Below are positions 28,109-39,451 of a stretch of DNA of 64,000 bases, one piece after another. The notes beneath the pieces are model-generated. The model ran no database searches, was not told the origin of the DNA, and saw nothing but the letters and a program-made list of their open reading frames with translations. Within the stretch, counting starts at the first letter, position 1. Each line of letters opens with the position of its first letter. The position numbers were made by a program, and so were the translations under genes. Source of the DNA: Candidatus Jettenia ecosi. GTDB taxonomy: Bacteria > Planctomycetota > Brocadiia > Brocadiales > Brocadiaceae. Location: positions 1 to 64,000 of the forward strand of contig SULG01000003.1 of assembly GCA_005524015.1 (NCBI GenBank), in the 5' to 3' direction.

Positions 28109-29086
28109 ATGGATATTCACCAGCATAAAGATAAGATTTTTCCGATATATGTCGTTTTTGGAGATGAAGAATTTTTTATTCGTGAGGCGCTTTCATCGTT
28201 AAAGGCTCATCTGCTCAAGGATACCGATCCTACTATTTCTTTAGTTGAATTTAAAGGTGACGAAGTTGCCGGAGGGATAATATTTGATGAACTGCGGACC
28301 ATGCCTTTTTTTATAAGTAAGAATAAGGTAGTGATTGTGGAAGATGTGGATAGTTTTGTTGAGAAAAACAGGCAGGTACTGGAAAAATATGTGCAGGCGC
28401 CTGCGAGTCATTCCCAGCTTATTCTTGTATGCGATAAATGGGACAAGAGAACAAAATTGGCAACCCTTGTTGACAAGGTCGGGATTCTGGCAGAATGTAA
28501 AAAATTAAAGGATCATCAATTGCCAAACTGGATAATTACCCGCACGAAACAGTACAAAAAAACAATCACTACCAAAGCGGCTCAAATGATAGCCGAGAAT
28601 GCAGGTAATAATTTAGCCATCCTGGATAAGCATATTGAGAAGTTATCTATTTATCTTGGCGATAGAACAGCGATTGACGAAAAGGATGTGGAAGCCCTTG
28701 TTGGGATTGATAGAAACCGAACGATATTTGAGCTAACCGATGCTGTTGCACAGAGAAATGTAACAATAGCTTTGAAAACCCTTAGTCAAATGCTGACACA
28801 CGGGGAAGATTCAGTAAAGATTATTAGTTTACTGGCATGGCAAATGAAACGGTTGTGGAGGGCTAAGCAGATGTTAAATAAGGGAGTACATGAATCAAAA
28901 GTTACCTCTGAATTACAAGTGCTCCCATTCTTCGCAAAGCGTTTTTTTGAACAGGTCAGGATTTTTACCGAGGAAGATCTCACAAAAAAGTATGCCCTCT
29001 TGCTGGAAGCTGATGTGAAGAGTAAGACAAGTTCCTTTAGTATGCAATTACTCTTAGAATTGCTGGTATATAAATTATGTATTTAA
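28109..29086 (+). CDS. holA: DNA polymerase III subunit delta
   Basis: A 325-residue HolA protein, the clamp-loader subunit that opens the sliding clamp. Family features are the N-terminal YVVFGDEEFFIREALSSLK, FISKNKVVIVEDVD, the segment LILVCDKWDKRTKL, NNLAILDKHIEKLSIYLG, and the C-terminal collar region LLAWQMKRLWRAKQML. Sequence identity in this family is low, so length and motif order are the main support. It immediately precedes the restriction-modification island. Confidence 0.86.
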   Translation: MDIHQHKDKIFPIYVVFGDEEFFIREALSSLKAHLLKDTDPTISLVEFKGDEVAGGIIFDELRTMPFFISKNKVVIVEDVDSFVEKNRQVLEKYVQAPASHSQLILVCDKWDKRTKLATLVDKVGILAECKKLKDHQLPNWIITRTKQYKKTITTKAAQMIAENAGNNLAILDKHIEKLSIYLGDRTAIDEKDVEALVGIDRNRTIFELTDAVAQRNVTIALKTLSQMLTHGEDSVKIISLLAWQMKRLWRAKQMLNKGVHESKVTSELQVLPFFAKRFFEQVRIFTEEDLTKKYALLLEADVKSKTSSFSMQLLLELLVYKLCI

Positions 29087-29103
29087 AAGATAAAAGGGCT
29101 TTC

Positions 29104-30873
29104 ATGAACAACTTCAGAGAAAAGGCAAACTTAATCTGGTCTATTGCCGACTTGCTAAGAGGTCACTATAAACAGGCTGATTATGGAAAAGTTATCCTGC
29201 CATTTACGGTACTGAGAAGGCTGGATATGGTGCTTGCACCAACGAAAAAACTGGTGCTGGAAGCATATCAGAAACACAAGGATAAAAAACCGGAGGTGTT
29301 GGAACCCATTTTAAATGGGGTTGCAAAGGCCAAATTTCATAACCGCAGTAAGTTTGATTTTCATGAGCTTGCTAAAGACCATAATAATGTGGCTGCCAAT
29401 CTGCGCAATTATATGAACGGGTTTTCAATCAGCGCCAGGGAGATAATCGATTATTTCAGCTTTGATGACCAGATCCGGAAGCTGGACGAATATGACTTGC
29501 TGTATTTAATCATAAAGGAATTTGCCAAAAAAGAGGATACTTTTAAAGATGTTGACGCCATGGAAATGGGTTACATCTTTGAAGAACTGATCCGTAAATT
29601 TGCGGAACTCAGCAACGAAACAGCCGGTGAGCATTTTACCCCAAGAGAGGTTATCCGCCTTATGGTAAATCTGCTGTTTGCTCACGATAAAGACATTCTG
29701 CGCAAAGAGGGTATCGTTAAAACGTTGTACGACCCGGCCTGCGGAACCGGTGGGATGCTTTCCATTGCCGGTGAATACCTGCACGACCTGAACTCGGGGG
29801 CAAGACTTGAATTGTTCGGACAGGAAATCAATCCGGAATCGTACGCTATTTGTAAATCGGATATGCTTATCAAAGGCCAAAATCCGGCCAATATAAAATT
29901 TGGTAACAGCTTTACCCAGGATGGGTTGGAGGATGAAACCTTTGATTACATGCTCAGCAATCCACCATTTGGTGTGGACTGGAAAAAGGCCCAGAAGTAT
30001 ATCAGGGATGAATACGAAAACAGAGGCTTTGCCGGCCGTTTTGGTGCAGGTCTGCCTTCCATTAGCGATGGCTCGTTACTCTTCCTGCAGCACATGATTA
30101 GTAAAATGAAACGGAGTACGGGCGGCAGCCGCATTGCAATTGTCTTTAACGGCTCACCGTTGTTTAGCGGCGCCGCCGGCAGAGGTCCCGGTAATATCCG
30201 TAAATGGATTATTGAAAATGATATGCTGGAAGCTATCATCGCCATGCCCGACCAATTATTTTACAACACCGGCATTTCCACATATATTTGGATTGTTACC
30301 GACCGCAAAACACCCGAACGCAAGGGCAAAGTGCAGCTCATTAACGCTAGCGGTAGCGACTGGGAGGAAGGCGATAAGAGCAACCCGTTCTCCATGAAAA
30401 TGATGCGCAGCCTGGGCAATAAACGTAAAGAAATCGGTGATGGCAGAGACGGCAAGCCCGATCAAATTAAAACTATTACCAAACTCTACGAGGCCTTTAA
30501 GGATGGCCCTTATTGTAAAATTTTTAACAATGAAGATTTCGGTTATCATCGCATTACCGTGGAACGCCCCAAACGCAATAAACGAGGAGAAATTGAAACC
30601 GACCGCAAAGGCGACCCGGTGCCCGATGCTGATTTGCGAGATTATGAAAACGTGCCTTTAAAAGAGGATATTGAAGAATATTTTAAAAGGGAGGTGTTAC
30701 CACACCTGCCGGATGCCTGGATAGACCATAGCAAGACCAAAACCGGTTATGAGATTAACTTTACTAAATATTTTTACCAGTATAAGCCCCTGAGAAGTTT
30801 GGAAGAGATACGCAGGGATATTCTGGCTTTGGAAAAAGAAACCGAAGGAATGATAAAAATAGTTCTTGATTAA
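29104..30873 (+). CDS. hsdM: Type I restriction-modification methyltransferase subunit M
   Basis: A 589-residue N6-adenine methyltransferase subunit. The N-terminal helical HsdM domain (about 1-150) is followed by the SAM motif DPACGTGGML near residue 209 and the catalytic NPPFGVDW near residue 285. ATG 29104 begins the family N terminus MNNFREKANLIWSIADLLRG, with AAAAGGG upstream; an earlier in-frame start overlaps holA. With HsdS it would methylate a bipartite site. The gene appears intact. Its codon use looks GC-richer than the flanking genes, which suggests acquisition; I have not computed this. Confidence 0.95.
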   Translation: MNNFREKANLIWSIADLLRGHYKQADYGKVILPFTVLRRLDMVLAPTKKLVLEAYQKHKDKKPEVLEPILNGVAKAKFHNRSKFDFHELAKDHNNVAANLRNYMNGFSISAREIIDYFSFDDQIRKLDEYDLLYLIIKEFAKKEDTFKDVDAMEMGYIFEELIRKFAELSNETAGEHFTPREVIRLMVNLLFAHDKDILRKEGIVKTLYDPACGTGGMLSIAGEYLHDLNSGARLELFGQEINPESYAICKSDMLIKGQNPANIKFGNSFTQDGLEDETFDYMLSNPPFGVDWKKAQKYIRDEYENRGFAGRFGAGLPSISDGSLLFLQHMISKMKRSTGGSRIAIVFNGSPLFSGAAGRGPGNIRKWIIENDMLEAIIAMPDQLFYNTGISTYIWIVTDRKTPERKGKVQLINASGSDWEEGDKSNPFSMKMMRSLGNKRKEIGDGRDGKPDQIKTITKLYEAFKDGPYCKIFNNEDFGYHRITVERPKRNKRGEIETDRKGDPVPDADLRDYENVPLKEDIEEYFKREVLPHLPDAWIDHSKTKTGYEINFTKYFYQYKPLRSLEEIRRDILALEKETEGMIKIVLD

Positions 30874-30874
30874 T

Positions 30875-30994
30875 ATGGAAAAATATAAACACCAATACCA
30901 CATCTCCACCGCAAGATTGGATGGCTGGGATTATGGTTCAGATGGGGCATATTTTGTAACCGTGTGTACAAAAAACAAAGCATGTTATACTTAA
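30875..30994 (+). pseudogene. N-terminal fragment of a REP-associated tyrosine transposase
   Basis: A 39-codon reading frame starts 1 nt after the hsdM stop. It includes RLDGWDYGSDGAYFVTVCTKNK, partly cited here, which matches the N terminus of RAYT-type HUH transposases (R-x-x-x-W-D-Y-x-x-x-G-x-Y-F-V-T-x-C-T). It then stops with no sign of the catalytic HxH or tyrosine region. The remainder has been lost and REP-type repeats follow. It differs from the small Y1 transposase at 33189. Confidence 0.7.
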
Positions 30995-31028
30995 CGTGTT
31001 CACAAATGTAATTTATTTAAAAACTATG

Positions 31029-31211
31029 AACCCCGAAGGGGTAAAATGATTATAGAAGAAAAAACCGGCAAACAACGCCCAATCCCAAAGGGATGACATA
31101 ATGATCACCACGTGGGGCATTTTCATGGGAAAACAATTATATCACCCCTTCAGGGTTTATCGCAGGTTTTTTCTGCAATCGTCTATAATAATTTCATCCC
31201 TTCGGGATTCC
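31029..31211. repeat. REP-type palindromic repeat cluster between hsdM and hsdS
   Basis: Four short hairpin units lie here. Two read forward (CCCCGAAGGGG at 31031 with tail ATGATTATAG; ATCCCAAAGGGAT at 31082) and two read in reverse (ACCCCTTCAGGGTT at 31144; ATCCCTTCGGGAT at 31196 preceded by CTATAATAATT). They belong to the same family as the units after hsdS but are more degraded. The rest of the 470-bp gap up to hsdS shows no gene. Confidence 0.8.
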
Positions 31212-31342
31212 TTGCTTTTTCGCGGAAGGTTGTTTGAATATCACAATCTGCGACCTTCTTAGTATATTTTGGTGAAATTCAAAATGTAGAGACGTAATAT
31301 TGAGTCTCTACAGGTGGGAATGAATAGAATAAAATCAGAATT

Positions 31343-32677
31343 ATGAAACGATACAAAAAATATAAGGATTCAGGGATTGAATGGGTCGGGGAGATTCCGG
31401 ATCATTGGGAAATAAAGAGGTTAAAGTATTTAGCCAAAGTTAACTCTTCAAAAAAGAATTTTGATTTAGAAAATAATTCTGAAACAGAAGTTGTGTTTTT
31501 ACCAATGGAAAAAGTTTCCAAACACGGAACAATAGATCAGGATTTAAGAAAGAAGAGTAATGAAGTAAGCACAGGATTTACTTATTTTGAAAGAAATGAC
31601 ATTATTGTTGCGAAAATTACACCTTGTTTTGAAAATGGTAAAGGGGCTTTCCTTGAAAATCTTGAAACAGAATTTGGTTTTGGTTCAACTGAGTTTCATG
31701 TATTGCGGGCAAGTAACAAAATCAACAAAAAATTTCTTTTCTATCAAACGAAGACAGACCGTTTTATGAATATTGGCGAAGCGTTCATGATTGGTTCTGC
31801 TGGGCAGAAAAGAGTACCATTAAGTTTTGTTGAATCTTTCATTATTGGAATCCCACAATTAGAAGAACAGATCGCCGTTGCCAACTACTTAGACGAAAAA
31901 ACCATCCAAATCGACAAGCTCATTTCTAATAAGCAAAAACTGATTGATCTGCTCAGAGAAGAATGCACCGCTATCATCAACCAGGCGGTTACAAAAGACA
32001 TTGACCCTAACATAAAACTCAAACCCAGCGGTATTGAGTGGTTGGGGGAGATTCCGGAACATTGGGAGGTGAAGAAGTTGAAGTATGTGGCGACAATTCA
32101 GTCAAGTAACGTCGACAAGAAAACAAATGAAGAAGAAAAATCAATCCTGCTTTGTAATTATATAGATGTTTATAAGAATGAATTTATAGATGATTCTATT
32201 TCTTTTATGGAAGCAACTGCAACAGAAAAGGAGATTGAAAAATTTATTCTTAATAAAGGTGATGTTCTAATAACGAAGGATTCTGAAACTCCTGACGATA
32301 TTGCAAATCCTGCTTATGTTGTAAAAGATTTTGATAATGTTATTTGCGGTTATCATTTAGCTCAAATTAGAGCAAATCAAATAGAACTACATGGAGAATA
32401 CTTGTTCCGGCTTTTTCAATCAAGACAATTTAATACTCACTTTGAAGTCTCTGCCAATGGAGTAACCCGCTTTGGGCTTCCGCTCGATTCAATAGCTGAT
32501 GTCTTCGTCCCGTTACCAAGTAAAGAAGAACAATTAAGTATCACCGAGTACATTTTAAAAGAAACTCAAAAAATATCTAATACCATTGTCAAAATAGAAA
32601 AAGAAATTAAATTACTACAAGAATACCGCATAGCCTTAATCAGCGAAGTGGTTATCGGAAAAATCAAGGTGGTATAA
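31343..32677 (+). CDS. hsdS: Type I restriction-modification specificity subunit S
   Basis: A 444-residue specificity subunit with the two-fold pattern of the family. Each half begins with SGIEW-GEIP-HWE (residues about 10-25 and 228-243) and has a target-recognition domain, then a conserved helical spacer (LISNKQKLIDLLREE and IVKIEKEIKLLQEYR). The last residues, LQEYRIALISEVVIGKIKVV, are the common C-terminal motif, copies of which recur downstream. The gene is intact; ATG 31343. It determines the DNA sequence recognised by HsdM and HsdR. Confidence 0.95.
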   Translation: MKRYKKYKDSGIEWVGEIPDHWEIKRLKYLAKVNSSKKNFDLENNSETEVVFLPMEKVSKHGTIDQDLRKKSNEVSTGFTYFERNDIIVAKITPCFENGKGAFLENLETEFGFGSTEFHVLRASNKINKKFLFYQTKTDRFMNIGEAFMIGSAGQKRVPLSFVESFIIGIPQLEEQIAVANYLDEKTIQIDKLISNKQKLIDLLREECTAIINQAVTKDIDPNIKLKPSGIEWLGEIPEHWEVKKLKYVATIQSSNVDKKTNEEEKSILLCNYIDVYKNEFIDDSISFMEATATEKEIEKFILNKGDVLITKDSETPDDIANPAYVVKDFDNVICGYHLAQIRANQIELHGEYLFRLFQSRQFNTHFEVSANGVTRFGLPLDSIADVFVPLPSKEEQLSITEYILKETQKISNTIVKIEKEIKLLQEYRIALISEVVIGKIKVV

Positions 32678-32682
32678 AATCA

Positions 32683-32758
32683 AGCCCGAAGGGCTGACAT
32701 GATTATAGCCAATGAACAACCATAAATTAACAACCCCGAAGGGGTGAAATGATCTTAG
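32683..32758 (+). repeat. Composite REP unit A, copy 1
   Basis: Two hairpins in tandem: AGCCCGAAGGGCT (32683) followed by TGACATGATTATAG, then about 36 nt later AACCCCGAAGGGGT (32732) followed by a GAAATGATCTTAG tail. It begins 5 nt after the hsdS stop. Copies 2 and 3 lie at 33094 and 33814 in the same orientation with only scattered differences. Confidence 0.88.
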
Positions 32759-32819
32759 ATAAAGAATTGAAACAATGATAGATTCTGAAGGGATGACATT
32801 TATACACGGGTTGCTAATG

Positions 32820-32890
32820 TCACCCCTTCGGGGTTCAAAATTTTTCTTATGGTCTTTGCTATAATCATTACATCCCTTCAGGATTAGGCT
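32820..32890 (-). repeat. Composite REP unit B (inverted), copy 1
   Basis: The inverse arrangement of unit A: CACCCCTTCGGGGTT, an AT-rich spacer, CTATAATCAT and ATCCCTTCAGGATT. Read on the - strand it is hairpin plus ATGATTATAG tail twice. Between A1 and B1 a further degraded unit (GATTCTGAAGGGATGACAT) is seen. Two more decayed inverted units occur at about 32945 and 32990. Confidence 0.85.
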
Positions 32891-33093
32891 TAAAGAACCA
32901 TAATTAGTGCATTTACTGGATTGAAATGAAAAGAAATCATAATTATTATATCCTTCGGGATTGAGAAACAAAATAAATCGTGCTTTAATTATGACATCCT
33001 TTTGTGATTAAAATAGGATACACTAAAAAAACGTTCAGATTATAAACTCGGCTTGTAAAGATGAAAAATTGCATTGACAAATAACCAACAAAA

Positions 33094-33169
33094 AGCCCGA
33101 AGGGCTAGCATGATTATAGTCAATGAATAACCACAGACCAATAACCCCGAAGGGGTGAAATGATTATAG
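33094..33169 (+). repeat. Composite REP unit A, copy 2 (left flank of transposase)
   Basis: AGCCCGAAGGGCT at 33094 and AACCCCGAAGGGGT at 33143, each followed by a TGATTATAG tail, in the same layout as copy 1. It ends 19 nt before the transposase start codon. A TTGACA at 33074 just upstream could be part of a promoter, but no good -10 was found. Confidence 0.88.
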
Positions 33170-33188
33170 GATGAAATAAAAGAAAACC

Positions 33189-33650
33189 ATGGCTGGAACG
33201 TTCACGCAAATATACATACAGGCAATATTTGCCGTAAACGGCAGGGCAAACCTGTTGCAAAAACCCTGGTGTGACGATGTGTTCAAATATATGGCCGGCA
33301 TCATCAAAAACAAGGGACAAAAACCTATAATCGTTAATAGCATTGCCAACCATGTGCATATGTTCGTTGGGTTGCAACCGGCTATGGCTGTTTCTGATCT
33401 GATCAGGGATGTGAAAAACAATACGACAAATTTCATCAATGATCAAAAATGGGTCAGAGGTAAATTTTCATGGCAGGAAGGATATGGCGCGTTCTCTTAT
33501 GCCCATAGCCAGATCGAGACAGTTTATAACTATATTTTAAAACAGGAAGAACATCATAATAAAAAAACATTTAAAGAAGAATATATTGATTTTCTGAAAA
33601 AATTCCAGATATTGCATGAAGAACGGTTTTTATTTGAATGGATTGATTGA
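33189..33650 (+). mobile_element. IS200/RAYT-like Y1 transposase gene within a REP cassette
   Basis: A complete 153-residue HUH single-strand transposase of the Y1_Tnp family. The metal-binding HxH is H55-V-H57 (NHVHMFVG) and the catalytic tyrosine is Y115 (or Y113) in VYNYILKQEEHH. The MAGTFTQIYIQAIFAV start and W-EGYGAFSYAHS segment are typical of small IS200-like or RAYT transposases. It lies between a forward composite repeat (33094-33169) and an inverted one (33658-33730), 19 and 8 nt away. No tnpB-type gene is present. It probably nicks and moves the surrounding hairpin DNA. Confidence 0.88.
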
Positions 33651-33657
33651 TACTATT

Positions 33658-33730
33658 TCACCCCTTCGGGGTTCAAAATCTTTCTTCTGTTTTTTTGCTA
33701 TAATCATTACATCCCTTCGGGATTAGGTTG
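33658..33730 (-). repeat. Composite REP unit B (inverted), copy 2 (right flank of transposase)
   Basis: CACCCCTTCGGGGTT, an AT-rich spacer, CTATAATCAT and ATCCCTTCGGGATTAGG. It begins 8 nt after the transposase stop and mirrors unit A copy 2, so transposase plus A and B looks like one cassette. An hsdS-like 3' end follows at once. Confidence 0.88.
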
Positions 33731-33731
33731 A

Positions 33732-33809
33732 AAAGAAACCAAATTTTTGCAGGAATACCGTGCGGCATTAATTTCGAAAGTTGTAACAGGAAAAATAAAG
33801 GTGATATAA
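33732..33809 (+). pseudogene. hsdS 3'-end remnant, copy 2
   Basis: In frame after a TGA, this reads KETKFLQEYRAALISKVV, then TGKIKVI and a stop. That aligns over 25 residues with the C terminus of the intact HsdS (KEIKLLQEYRIALISEVV, IGKIKVV). Many differences are in third codon positions, so it is a diverged relative and not a fresh duplication. The rest of the gene is missing and REP unit B copy 2 occupies its place. Confidence 0.82.
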
Positions 33810-33813
33810 TCCA

Positions 33814-33889
33814 AGCCCGAAGGGCTGGCATGATTATAGCCAACGAACAATCATAGATCAACAACCCCGAAGGGGTGAAATAATTATGG
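33814..33889 (+). repeat. Composite REP unit A, copy 3
   Basis: AGCCCGAAGGGCT at 33814 and AACCCCGAAGGGGT at 33863, with tails GGCATGATTATAG and GAAATAATTATG. It begins 4 nt after the stop of hsdS remnant 2, the same position that unit A copy 1 has after the intact hsdS. Confidence 0.86.
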
Positions 33890-33899
33890 GTTTCCAATA

Positions 33900-33971
33900 C
33901 CACCCCTTCGGGGTTTAAAACCTTTTTTCTATTTTTTGCTATAATCATGACATCCCTTTGGGATTAGGCTG
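33900..33971 (-). repeat. Composite REP unit B (inverted), copy 3
   Basis: CACCCCTTCGGGGTTT, a T-rich spacer, CTATAATCAT and ATCCCTTTGGGATTAGG. Together with A3 it forms a cassette of the same layout as A2-transposase-B2 but without the gene, i.e. a non-autonomous form. hsdS remnant 3 follows. Confidence 0.86.
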
Positions 33972-33972
33972 A

Positions 33973-34047
33973 AAAGAAACCGAATTCTTACAGGAATACC
34001 GCACCGCTTTAACCAGTGAAGCGGTTACCGGGAAAATAAAGGTTCTA
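33973..34047 (+). pseudogene. hsdS 3'-end remnant, copy 3
   Basis: After a TGA this reads KETEFLQEYRTALTSEAV, then TGKIKVL, again matching the HsdS C terminus. The stop codon found in the other two copies is replaced: the frame runs on about 9 codons, and the ATG of the next gene (34047) lies within its last codons. The AlbA-like gene thus begins where an hsdS gene used to end. Confidence 0.8.
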
Positions 34048-35705
34048 TGGCAGCATCTGAATTACTACAAAAATTAAATGAACTTCGCGGCCTACCTGCT
34101 GAAACTGAAGTGTTTGAGTTTAAGGAGGCTAAAAATGGTTACGACTTTAGCAAGCTCGGAAAGTATTTTTCTGCTTTGTCAAATGAGGCAAATCTCAAGG
34201 GTAAACCTCATGCATGGCTGGTTTTCGGTATTAAAGACAAAGGGAGAACTATAGTCGGCAGCCGTTTTCGACCAAATCGTAACGACCTTGACAGCCTTAA
34301 GGGAGAAATAGCAAGTAAAACGACTAATCGTATCACATTTATTGAAATATATGAAATGCTTCTACCAGAAGGCCGGGTACTCATGTTTCAAATCCCTGCT
34401 GCACCAAAAGGACTGCCTATTGCATTTGATGGGCATTATTACGGCAGAGACGGCGAAGAATTGTCCCCTCTGAATCTTGAGGAAATTGAACGAATCCGAT
34501 CACAGGCGATTATAGATGACTGGAGTGCAGCAATTTTGTCCAATGCTACTATTGAAGATCTTGACCCATCAGCTATAACAAAGGCGCGGGAAAACTACAA
34601 AAATAAATTTCCTGAAAAGGCCGCTGAAGTAGACACCTGGGACGATATTACTTTCCTCAACAAAGCTAAAATAACAATCAAAGGGAAGATAACGCGTGCA
34701 GCTATAATTCTGTTAGGAAAAGGAGAATCGGAGCATTTTATAAATCCTGCTGAAGCAAAAATACGCTGGGTGTTAAAAGATACCAAGGGGAATGATAAAG
34801 ACTACCATATTGAAAGCTGCCCACTATTTCTTGCCGTTGATAAGATATATGCAAAGATTCGCAATCTGAAGTACCGCTATATTAAGGACGGCACTTTATT
34901 CCCCGATGAGGTTGACCAGTACGAGCCGTTCGTAATTCGCGAGGCTATTAACAACTGTATTGCCCATCAGGATTATACAAAGGGCGGCCGCATAAATGTT
35001 GTGGAAATGGAAGATCAGCTTGTATTTACCAACCTGGGCAGTTTTATCCCGGGCTCCGTAGAAAAGGTAATCACGGAAGATGCCCCGGAAGAACACTACC
35101 GAAACCGGTTCCTTGCAACAGCCATGTTTAATTTGAAAATGGTTGATACGGCGGGCGGGGGCATCAGAAAGATGTTTAATTATCAGCGAGAGCGTTTTTT
35201 CCCAATGCCCGAGTATGACTTATCAGGAGAAAAGGTAAAAGTAACGGTGATCGGTAAAGTACTGGATATGGATTTTGCGAAAGTATTGGCAAGAAATCCC
35301 AGTCTCTCCCTCGAACAAATCATCATCTTAGACAAAGTTCAAAAAAGAAAACGGCTTACGGAAGGAGAGGCTAACTATCTCAAAGGATTAGGATTAATAG
35401 AGGGGAGAAAGCCTAATTATATAATTTCTGCCAAAATAGCGGCTTCACTTTCCAACGAAGATTTAAAGGCTCAGTACATTAAACATCGCGGCTTGGATGA
35501 TGAGCACTACAAGAAACTTATTATTGAATATCTCACAAAATTCGGCAAATCTCACAGGAAAGAACTTGAACAATTCCTGTGGACTAAATTGCCTGATATT
35601 TTGACTGAAAATCAAAAGAAAAACAAGGTTACCAATTTGTTATCTGCACTAAGAATAAGCGGGAAAATAAAGAATAGCGGCTACTCAGAGTGGTCTCTTG
35701 TTTAA
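34047..35705 (+). CDS. AlbA_2/Schlafen-like DNA-binding protein with GHKL-type domain
   Basis: A 552-residue protein of the group often annotated as putative DNA-binding or RecG-like transcriptional regulator. The N-terminal AlbA_2 (Schlafen-related) domain has FEFKEAKNGYDFSKLGKYFSALSN at about 25-45 and HAWLVFGIKDKGRTIVGS. The HATPase_c_4-type region has IREAINNCIAHQDY and GGGIRKMF at about 295-380. The C terminus has winged-helix-like repeats. Such genes are frequent companions of type I restriction loci. Its role, regulation or separate defence, is not established. It stands between hsdS remnants and hsdR. Confidence 0.82.
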   Translation: MAASELLQKLNELRGLPAETEVFEFKEAKNGYDFSKLGKYFSALSNEANLKGKPHAWLVFGIKDKGRTIVGSRFRPNRNDLDSLKGEIASKTTNRITFIEIYEMLLPEGRVLMFQIPAAPKGLPIAFDGHYYGRDGEELSPLNLEEIERIRSQAIIDDWSAAILSNATIEDLDPSAITKARENYKNKFPEKAAEVDTWDDITFLNKAKITIKGKITRAAIILLGKGESEHFINPAEAKIRWVLKDTKGNDKDYHIESCPLFLAVDKIYAKIRNLKYRYIKDGTLFPDEVDQYEPFVIREAINNCIAHQDYTKGGRINVVEMEDQLVFTNLGSFIPGSVEKVITEDAPEEHYRNRFLATAMFNLKMVDTAGGGIRKMFNYQRERFFPMPEYDLSGEKVKVTVIGKVLDMDFAKVLARNPSLSLEQIIILDKVQKRKRLTEGEANYLKGLGLIEGRKPNYIISAKIAASLSNEDLKAQYIKHRGLDDEHYKKLIIEYLTKFGKSHRKELEQFLWTKLPDILTENQKKNKVTNLLSALRISGKIKNSGYSEWSLV

Positions 35706-35750
35706 AAGAGTTTAAAAGAGTTTAAAAGAGTTTAAAAGAGTTTAAAAGAG
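35701..35750 (+). repeat. 10-bp tandem repeat, five perfect copies
   Basis: TTTAAAAGAG is repeated five times without a mismatch. The stop codon of the AlbA-like gene lies in the first copy, so changes in copy number do not alter that protein. The array ends 88 nt before the hsdR ATG, where it could change promoter or leader spacing. Confidence 0.97.
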
Positions 35751-35837
35751 TAAGTAACGAAAGACCAAAGATTTATTGCTCTTGTAAAATTATTGGGATA
35801 AAACTTATCAGGGATTATTTTTTTGGACAGGGGGACT

Positions 35838-38679
35838 ATGGCTAGTGAAATATACACTGAATCCATATTCGAAATGGCCATTATTGGCCATTTAACTGCA
35901 AACGGATGGTATTCCGGCAATGCCAGCGATTTCAACTGCGACCTGGCACTGGATAAAAAGGCGGTATTGTCCTTTGTGCAGGAATCTCAGCCCATAGAAT
36001 GGGAAAAATTGAAATCCTACTACAGAGAAGATACTGAAAACAAATTCGTCCATCGCCTATTCAAAGAACTGGATTTACGGGGTATGCTGGATGTTATCCG
36101 GCATGGTATTACGGATAGCGGTGTCAAATTTAAACTCGCATATTTCAAACCTGACAGCAAACTCAATCCCGACACGCTGAAACAATATAACTATAACAGG
36201 CTTTATGTCACCCGGCAGGTTTGTTTTTCAATAAAAAATAACAAAAGCATCGACCTTCTGCTTTCACTCAACGGGCTGCCTGTGGCAACCATTGAGTTAA
36301 AGAACCATTTTACCGGGCAACGAGTTGATGAAGCTATGGAACAATACCGTACCAGCCGTGATCCGAAGGAGTTGTTATTCCAGTTTAAAAAACGGGCATT
36401 AGCTCACTTTACGGTTGATCCGGATGAGGTCTATTTCACTACGAAGCTTGAAGGCAGTGGCACACGCTTTTTCCCATTCAATAAGGGGTTTAATAATGGC
36501 GGAGGCAATCCACCAACGAAAGATTATACCGCTTACCGTGCTGCCTATTTCTGGGGGGATATGCTGAGTGTAGACAGTTGGCTGGAAATTATTGGACGTT
36601 TTATGCATCTGCAAAAGGATGAATACCTGGTTGATGGGAAAAAGTATTACAAAGAAACCTTGCTTTTTCCCCGCTATCACCAGCTTGATGCGGTAAGGAA
36701 ATTAACAGCACATACGAAGGTACGAGGGCCAGGCAAGAGATACCTCATACAACATTCAGCCGGAAGTGGAAAAAGCAACTCCATTGCATGGTTGGCCTAC
36801 CGGTTGTCTTCACTCTATAATGAAGCGGACAGGAAGGTTTTTGATTCAATTATTGTAATAACCGACCGGAACGTGCTTGACCAGCAGTTGCAAAATACCA
36901 TTTACCAGTTTGAGCATAAAACAGGCGTGGTGCAGCGCATCGATGCAGATTCCAAACAATTGGCAGATGCAATTAATTCAGGAGTCAGTATCATTATAAC
37001 AACCTTACAGAAATTCCCTTTTGCCTTAAAATATCTGACAGAAATTCCGAATCGCAACTATGCCGTTATCATTGACGAAGCGCACAGTAGCCAGGGCGGC
37101 GAAGCCAGTCGTAAAATGACAGAGGCATTGGTTGGTAAAAATGTTACCCTGGAAGAATCTGAAAACGTTGAAGGTGAGATTGAAAAAGACATTGAAGATG
37201 AAGACGACTATATAAGGGAAACCATTCTGAAAAGAGGCCCACAGAAAAACATTAGCCTGTTTGCTTTTACAGCAACTCCAAAGGCAAAAACATTGGAAGT
37301 GTTTGGAAATAAAGATGCAGAAAGAAAGCCAAAGCCGTTTCACCTTTACTCCATGCGTCAGGCTATTGATGAAGGTTTTATTCTGGATGTGCTCAGGAAT
37401 TATACAACCTATGAGACCTATTACCAATTCTGCAAGACCGTAGAAGAAGACCCTGAATTGAACAAAAGAAAGGCTGCAAAGGCCATAGGCAGATTTGCCT
37501 CGTTACACCCTACGAATCTTGCACAGAAAACGGAGGTCATGGTGGAGCATTTCAGGCACTGTCATCGATGATCTGTATCCGGAAGGCGTAACAGAAGCGC
37601 AATTGAACAAGCTCGGTGAAAAGGAATTACCCGAAAGGTTTTCAACCCCCGAATATCAGATTTTGCTTGTTGCCGATAAATACCAATATGGTTTTGATCA
37701 GCCTCTTTTACATACCATGTATGTGGATAAAAAATTATCTGGTGTGAGGGCGGTTCAGACCTTATCACGGTTAAACAGAATGTGTCCAGGGAAGGAAGAT
37801 ACCTTTGTTCTTGATTTTGCAAACGACCGGCAGACGATTATCGATTCATTTCAACCCTATTATGAGTTGACCACTATGGCAGAAACCACTGATCTGAATC
37901 ACTTATATGATTTGAAGGGAATTACTGATAAAGCACAGGTATATTATCAATCGGAAGTCGATGCATTTTCTAAAGTATTCTATAAACCCGATAACGTATC
38001 GGTAAAAGACCAGGCAAAATTATATGCATATGTTGACCCTGCAGTTGATCGCTATAAAGAATTGGAAGAAGAGCCGCAGGATGAATTTAAGAAGTCGATG
38101 ACATCATTTGTCCGCCTTTATTCCTTTCTTTCTCAAATTATGCCGTTTCAGGATAGAGAATTAGAAAAACTCTATTCTTATGGCTGCTTTTTATTAACCA
38201 AATTACCGAAAATAGATTATACAGAAAGGCTAAAACTCGATAATGAAGTTGCCCTTGAATATTACAGACTTCAGAAAATAGCTGAGGGCAATTTGGTATT
38301 ACAGGTTCAGGGTGAACATGGTCTTAATCCGACCATGGAGGCAGGCATAAGCAAGCCAAAAGATGAAAAAGACAAGCTTTCAAATATCATCCAGCTATTG
38401 AATGATAAATTCCGTACTGACTTTACCGAGGCTGATCGATTGTATTTTGAGCAAATAGCGCAGGCGCTGTATGAAAATGAAGAACTGAGGGTAAGGGCTA
38501 AAAATAATCCAATCGAAAATTTCAAATATGCGTTTGAAGAGGTTTTCATTCAAACCCTGATTGATAGAATGGATGCAAACCAGGATATCTTTGAAAAGAT
38601 CATGGAGAATTCGGAGTTTAAACAGGATGTGAAGGAATGGTTAACTAAGAAGATTTACGAGCGATTTAACGAGGGTTAA
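35838..38679 (+). pseudogene. hsdR: Type I restriction endonuclease subunit R, broken by internal deletion
   Basis: The 5' part (35838-37571) encodes the nuclease domain (IELKN near residue 152), Walker A HSAGSGKSNS near 306, IIDEAHSSQGG near 411 and FTATP near 476. It then hits a frame change. The 3' part continues from 37552 in the next frame with SGTVIDD, ADKYQYGFDQP (motif V), QTLSRLNR (motif VI) and a normal C-terminal domain to 38679. From family knowledge about 45 residues between EHFRHC and FSGTVID are missing. TTTCAGGCACTGT (37550-37562) fits both sides. ATG 35838 follows AGGGGGAC. Restriction activity is probably lost. Confidence 0.88.
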
Positions 38680-38803
38680 AGAATAGCGCTAATTCTATAA
38701 AATAATCAGGTTCTCTTGTTGCGAAATGTATGTTGATTCGATACTATTTCATGAGATAGTCAGATTAAATTTCATAATTTAATGAGAAAGGAAATAAAAT
38801 ACG

Positions 38804-39451
38804 ATGAAGTTTTTTATTGATACGGCGGATGTGAAAGAGATTCGGGAGGCACATAGTCTGGGTATACTGGATGGGGTAACGACAAATCCCAGCTTAATAG
38901 CCAAAACAGGCCGACCTTTTCGTGAAACGATTGAAGAGATTTGCTCTATTGTGGATGGACCGGTCAGTGCTGAGGTCGTAAGCCTCGATACAGAAGGTAT
39001 GCTCAAGGAGGCGAGGGAATTGGCAAAGATTGCGGATAATGTTGTGGTAAAGATTCCCTTAATAAAAAACGGATTAAAAGCGGTAAAAAAATTGGCGGAA
39101 GAGGGAATTAAAACGAACGTGACCCTCTGCTTTTCTGCCAATCAGGCGCTTTTAGCAGCGAAGGCCGGTGGCAGTTACATCAGTCCTTTTGTTGGAAGAT
39201 TGGATGATAGGGGGCAGGTAGGCATGGAACTTATTCAGGAGATTCGTACTATATATGATAATTATAGTTTCCCTACAGAAATTATTGTTGCCAGTATCCG
39301 TAATCCTGTTCATGTACGTGATGCAGCGTTAATGGGTGCGGATATTGCTACGATTCCTTTTCCTGTATTTGATTTGCTTGTTCAACATCCGCTTACGGAT
39401 GACGGCGTTAAGCGGTTCCTGGCAGATTGGGAAAAAGTGCCAAAAAAATAA
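38804..39451 (+). CDS. fsa: Fructose-6-phosphate aldolase / transaldolase-like protein (TalC/FSA)
   Basis: A 215-residue small transaldolase-family enzyme. [16 protein letters not shown] and [17 protein letters not shown] open the protein; the Schiff-base lysine is K83 in [36 protein letters not shown] and ASIRNPVH follow. The family includes true transaldolases and fructose-6-phosphate aldolases, which sequence alone does not separate safely. ATG 38804 follows GAAAGGA. It is the first intact gene after the restriction island. Confidence 0.93.

Follow-up and report, generated by a model that had tools for sequence, protein, structure and literature searches.

The hsd locus and its REP-like elements

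The window, i.e., the whole stretch of 64,000 nucleotides that was analyzed (contig C3 of genome G000; its relatives are coded by other G numbers), carries a type I restriction-modification locus in which hsdM, hsdS, and hsdR are all present, the last being split by a frameshift in the assembly. The features are collected in Table 1. The intact hsdS is full length, since the PADLOC profile covers residues 1–443 of its product (E 3e-125). Between this gene and the Schlafen/AlbA gene, the following elements are aligned: A1, B1, a degenerate REP array, A2, the transposase gene, B2, hsdS end 2, A3, B3, and hsdS end 3. The A and B doublets have opposite orientations, and the A3-B3 pair folds on itself as RNA (−65 kcal/mol, z −8.3). 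The preliminary description of this DNA placed A1 and A3 4–5 nt past the stop codons of hsdS and remnant 2, which was nearly exact: the measured distances are 4 and 3 nt, respectively. It did not include the complete transposase gene between A2 and B2.

Table 1 Features of the locus and loci of the dispersed family II (positions in the window unless a contig is given; R1, sequence-only model of the hsdS end)
Feature	Position	Strand	Remarks
hsdM, type I DNA methyltransferase subunit	29077..30873	+	Pfam N6_Mtase and HsdM_N; 93% identical to G012 hsdM
hsdS, intact specificity gene, 444 aa, two TRDs	31343..32677	+	Pfam Methylase_S; PADLOC Specificity_I
hsdS 3′ end 1, inside the intact gene	32598..32677	+	
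REP-like doublet A1	32682..32759	+	Direct-repeat family D3
REP-like doublet B1, inverted	32808..32886	−	Repeat families D2 and I1
REP-like doublet A2	33093..33170	+	
Y1 (HUH) transposase, IS200-like type, complete, inverted REP doublets on both sides	33189..33650	+	Pfam Y1_Tnp, E 4e-19; NCBIfam IS200/IS605
REP-like doublet B2	33651..33725	−	
hsdS 3′ end 2 (remnant 2), with stop codon	33730..33809	+	75 bits, R1; 52.9 bits, intact-only profile
REP-like doublet A3	33813..33890	+	
REP-like doublet B3	33891..33966	−	
hsdS 3′ end 3 (remnant 3), overlapping the start of the next gene	33971..34049	+	75.9 bits, R1; 59.7 bits, intact-only profile
Schlafen/AlbA_2 and HATPase_c_4 gene	34047..35705	+	Pfam; orthologue in G009 overlapped at its start by intact hsdS
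hsdR, two overlapping frames, frameshift near 37550–37615	35823..38679	+	
Family II loci L227–L237 and L182 (G000)	C19:8203, C52:6739, C29:31354, C55:1983 and 21652, C50:10129, C145:6074, C22:35238, C94:2319, C71:18282, C6:46907, C23:8423		

Several further observations concern the surroundings. In the region between hsdM and hsdS (30874–31211), the start of a transposase-like ORF (MEKYKHQYHISTARLDGWDYGSDGAYFVTVCTKNKACYT, then a stop codon) is followed by inverted REP doublets, and the counterpart of this ORF in G012 is longer (L068, 6326–6643). In G009, two genes occur between hsdM and hsdS (L144, 6371–8022), a 382-aa ORF and a gene for a DUF4411 protein, which may form a toxin-antitoxin-like pair. 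A 10-bp repeat, GTTTAAAAGA, occurs five times in tandem directly 3′ of the Schlafen/AlbA gene (35700–35751), and variant copies are found at the same position in relatives (L084 and L100). The hsdR of G016 is intact (997 aa), whereas that of the window is split into two frames by either a mutation or an assembly error. Rfam gave no matches within 29000–39000.

The transposase carries the NHVH motif and the Y motif YILKQEEHH. REP doublets adjoin every homologue checked at 64% identity or more (9 genomic loci), while homologues below 58% identity have no adjoining doublets, a stray REP near L002 being the only exception; REP-like doublets are also dispersed elsewhere in the genome. This system resembles the REPtron/RAYT REP-BIME systems in that a single Y1 HUH transposase lies between inverted palindromic doublets and the doublets are dispersed. 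In those systems, REPs are found at most 20 bp from the 3′ ends of genes and clusters reiterate flanking DNA (PMC3733652); here too, the REPs are close to gene 3′ ends and flanking DNA is reiterated in clusters, but the reiterated DNA is an hsdS end. Two other differences were found. One is that neither GTAG nor CGTC occurs at the foot of the palindromes, which read AAGCCCGAAGGGCTGACATGATTATAG and AACCCCGAAGGGGTGAAATGATTATAG. Another is that the class 2 Y motif (Y...NP) of canonical TnpA_REP is lacking, and YILKQEEHH fits subclass 1.2 of PMC6006769. Because of this Y motif and the missing tags, we call the elements REP-like and do not count the transposase as a canonical TnpA_REP member. TnpAY1 subclass 1.2 is listed without REP in Table 1 of PMC6006769; the clade with the subclass 1.2 motif to which the window transposase belongs (with L009–L015 and L022) is consistently REP-flanked.

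Identity of the two additional hsdS ends

The C-terminal motif of HsdS had been reported to occur twice more behind the intact gene, each time just after an inverted unit B, and both points were borne out. The last ~77 nt of hsdS are found again at 33731–33807 (71% identical) and 33972–34048 (78% identical), and each remnant starts about 4 nt after a REP B doublet. With an nhmmer profile built from five intact hsdS ends and nothing else (hereafter, the intact-only profile), the scores of ends 2 and 3 correspond to E-values of 4e-15 and 3e-17, respectively, whereas the top score among 20 dinucleotide shuffles (2.9 Mb) was 10.2 bits. Remnant 3 has no hsdS stop codon and reads into the ATG of the Schlafen/AlbA gene at 34047. 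Ends 2 and 3 are thus true hsdS ends.

The many codon-silent changes noted in the preliminary description were also recovered when the three ends were aligned at the nucleotide level. Over 24 codons, the silent-only and amino-acid-changing codons number 9 and 6 between ends 1 and 2, 7 and 8 between ends 1 and 3, and 9 and 6 between ends 2 and 3. The share of the third codon position in the pairwise differences is 0.61 for the remnants, close to the 0.66 for intact hsdS genes, as compared with 0.36 for the non-coding dispersed copies described below (seven copies of family I, including partial ones). Given this concentration of the differences at the third position, most of the divergence of the remnants took place when they still belonged to functional hsdS genes. 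The codon comparison also supports the view that the remnants derive from different hsdS lineages and are not recent duplicates of the present hsdS. A search of genome contigs for ET[KE]FLQEYR, in a scan that may omit records close to the genome of the window, gave five matches, none of which was an HsdS end; this codon set therefore appears to be peculiar to the remnants. The leftmost 14 nt of each remnant may alternatively be a general REP flank. The motif was not found as such genome-wide, yet within this locus B1 is followed by a similar sequence.

Related loci and dispersed copies

The relatives provide information on the native arrangement. The intact hsdS of G009 overlaps the start codon (ATG) of the orthologous Schlafen/AlbA gene, while in six relatives (G016, G019, G023, G027, G030, and G041) only the last 20–75 bp of hsdS precede the orthologue. 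To the left of these six stubs, both the DNA and the truncation points vary, and the junction in G027 falls in an assembly gap. By these relatives, the original order is shown to be an hsdS directly overlapping the Schlafen/AlbA gene, end 3 representing such a native end. The six stubs also indicate that the hsdS 3′ end at this place is a recurrent breakpoint. A partial explanation may be that the Schlafen/AlbA ribosome-binding region, as read from AAAGGTnnnATG, would lie in the hsdS end. End 3 is probably also kept by selection, as it would hold this region.

A sister locus was found in G012, with the order hsdM, hsdS, A-B, REP array, transposase (94% identical), B, and one hsdS end, the last being followed by a different Schlafen/AlbA gene. 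It is the same locus with one remnant fewer than in the window. The hsdS recognition domains differ between the two loci, while the flanks are 82–89% identical: TRD1 of the window resembles TRD1 of G016 (67%) and has no match in G012, and TRD2 of the window resembles TRD1 of G012 and G009 (66–67%). Since the recognition domains are unlike and the flanks (hsdM and the REP/transposase region) are conserved, hsdS alleles have been exchanged between conserved flanks. In three genera of the family, a REP element stands 2–4 nt behind the hsdS stop codon, and hsdS and REP thus travel as one tail.

The units of the window were compared with this sister locus. The unit end2-A3-B3 and the unit end1-A1-B1 are each 83.5% identical to the tail of the intact G012 hsdS, and they are 80.6% identical to each other; B3-end3 is 84% identical to the G012 B-remnant over 120 bp. 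Moreover, end 2 looks chimeric: to the left of the breakpoint it matches the G012 remnant at 8 of 9 informative sites, and to the right it matches the intact G012 hsdS at 7 of 8. Given the shortness of the ends and the total of five comparisons, this evidence is modest; the permutation p of 0.0125 (maximum chi-square) becomes 0.06 under strict correction. The same test gave p 0.0026 for G012's own remnant.

Copies of the hsdS end associated with REP elements, which the preliminary description did not contain, are also dispersed in G000. They were found with R1 and then scored with the intact-only profile. About seven copies (family I) occur in C9, C63, C14, C96, C27, C76, and, at a contig end, C81; an orthologue of the C9 copy is present in G002. 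Their order is mostly REP B, hsdS end, REP A, and the ends are frame-preserving but decayed (17–35 bits). At least 12 further copies (family II) take the form of a TIR-bounded element of ~430 bp, TATAGTAAT..ATTACTATA, in which a weaker stretch resembling an hsdS end precedes the A-B doublets (4–18 bits); the identity of this stretch as an hsdS end is probable, not certain. Some family II copies are left-truncated, and the element possibly has a TA target duplication as in IS630-type MITEs. In G012, an orphan unit beside ychF (C1:2249262) is 78% identical to window 33730–33966 (E 2e-52), and a weaker hsdS end is located at C1:2967434. As for empty sites, the intergenic region of the nearest relative was not alignable for the ychF orphan; for the C9 copy, the flanks are present in G001 together with a portion of the unit, which resembles an internal deletion more than an empty site.

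The preliminary description had reasoned that the ends would not be hsdS relics if they belonged to the repeat itself. This applies elsewhere, where hsdS-end-plus-REP units lie away from hsd genes (G000 and two relatives); for ends 2 and 3, the coding signature and the neighbors speak against it. On these comparisons, we favor the view that the hsdS tails are gene relics at the window locus and repeat passengers elsewhere in the genome.

Origin of the stacked ends

On balance, and with moderate confidence, we consider the remnants to be 3′ ends kept from former hsdS alleles, which accumulated in layers as the specificity gene was successively replaced. In an early replacement, an hsdS with its REP would have taken the place of the resident hsdS and left one end as a stub, the right-hand junction lying near the AAAAGAAA stretch, ~24 codons before the stop codon. 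Later, homologous recombination would have brought in an hsdS-REP-transposase-REP-stub segment whose stub paired with the resident hsdS at its 3′ end. The body of the resident gene would thereby be lost, with its end and REP doublet remaining as end 2 and A3-B3, and every such out-of-register crossover would add one more layer. The REP doublets would probably hitch-hike and not act as enzymatic agents of the swap.

What favors stacking by replacement is the combination of the likeness of the units to the G012 tail, the match of B3-end3, and the chimera pattern, in which end 2 is remnant-like on the left and intact-hsdS-like on the right, the outcome expected if a donor stub crosses over with the end of a resident hsdS. 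The coding signature, the native arrangement in the relatives, and the TRD swap also speak for it. As in hsdS allele exchange by homologous recombination, TRDs are swapped between conserved flanks and conserved hsdS segments; unlike in plain exchange, stubs appear to remain after the swaps here, since a REP cassette and another copy of the end stand behind the hsdS tail. Against this explanation, the ends are only 72–80 nt long, their left-part codons (ETKF/ETEF) could be REP-flank sequence and not hsdS, and the order of events is deduced from a single relative that shares the locus. In addition, hsdS-end-plus-REP units are also moved or copied to other places in the genome, and end 2 could have arisen by transposition of such a unit.

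In its general form, this last idea supposes that one hsdS-REP junction was captured once and that the extra ends, 2 and 3 included, are copies of a repeat unit inserted beside the gene. We regard it as unlikely, though it fits the units found away from hsd genes in G012, G000, and G002, the probable copies (at least 12) in the TIR-bounded element, and the usual order of REP B, hsdS end, and REP A. The coding-type divergence of ends 2 and 3 is absent from the dispersed copies compared, end 3 lies exactly where the intact hsdS ends in G009, and the two ends score 53–60 bits with the intact-only profile versus 17–35 bits for the dispersed family in this genus.

More doubtful is the proposal of the preliminary description that two or three complete hsdS genes, with REPs after each, once stood in tandem and that their bodies were deleted. 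The ends do come from distinct functional hsdS lineages, end 2 retains its own REP tail, and multi-hsdS type I loci are known elsewhere (PMC7394358). However, a search for hsdS ends in 33 family genomes revealed no two complete hsdS genes in tandem, and the proposal requires two independent deletions stopping at the same codon, a junction also present in G012, whose locus has a single remnant. For relics of different hsdS genes, layered replacement is therefore more likely than a lost array. The locus shares with phase-variable multi-hsdS loci such as SpnIII (PMC7394358) the extra hsdS sequence downstream of the expressed hsdS and the shuffling of TRDs, but differs in having only 80-bp ends without TRDs, and direct instead of inverted repeats. 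The ORF list contains no second hsdS ORF with its own TRDs between 32677 and 34047, and no site-specific recombinase was found among the six proteins of the locus scanned with Pfam.

It is rather improbable that the hsdS end is a functional component of the REP cassette, serving as a homology arm that homes REP units onto hsdS, re-tails it, and exchanges or parks specificity alleles at many sites. Already disfavored, and the least probable of all, is the idea that unequal crossing-over at the 77-bp direct repeats duplicated one end-A-B unit in tandem and that the copies then diverged neutrally: the D4 repeat (33662–33807 versus 33903–34048; 75% identical in register, 241-bp spacing) and the description of large REP clusters in which REP dimers are repeated together with adjacent DNA (PMC3733652) agree with it, but 12 of the 20 differences between ends 2 and 3 are at the third position, as compared with about one third under neutrality (p 0.013), and these ends differ more from each other than each does from the G012 remnant.

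In the open-access literature, nothing was found that joins hsdS with RAYT/REP or that concerns the capture of gene fragments by REPINs. To our knowledge, no case has been described of a defense-gene fragment carried by REP/MITE-type repeats; the dispersed copies indicate that such carriage can occur. Because hsdS-end-plus-REP units are found away from hsd genes, an hsdS end beside a REP does not prove the loss of a local hsdS, and annotators should not take such a tail alone as evidence of a lost local restriction system. If stacking by successive replacement is true, the stubs would constitute a readable, ordered record of the specificity changes in a restriction system, and the hsdS 3′ ends would be recurrent exchange points.
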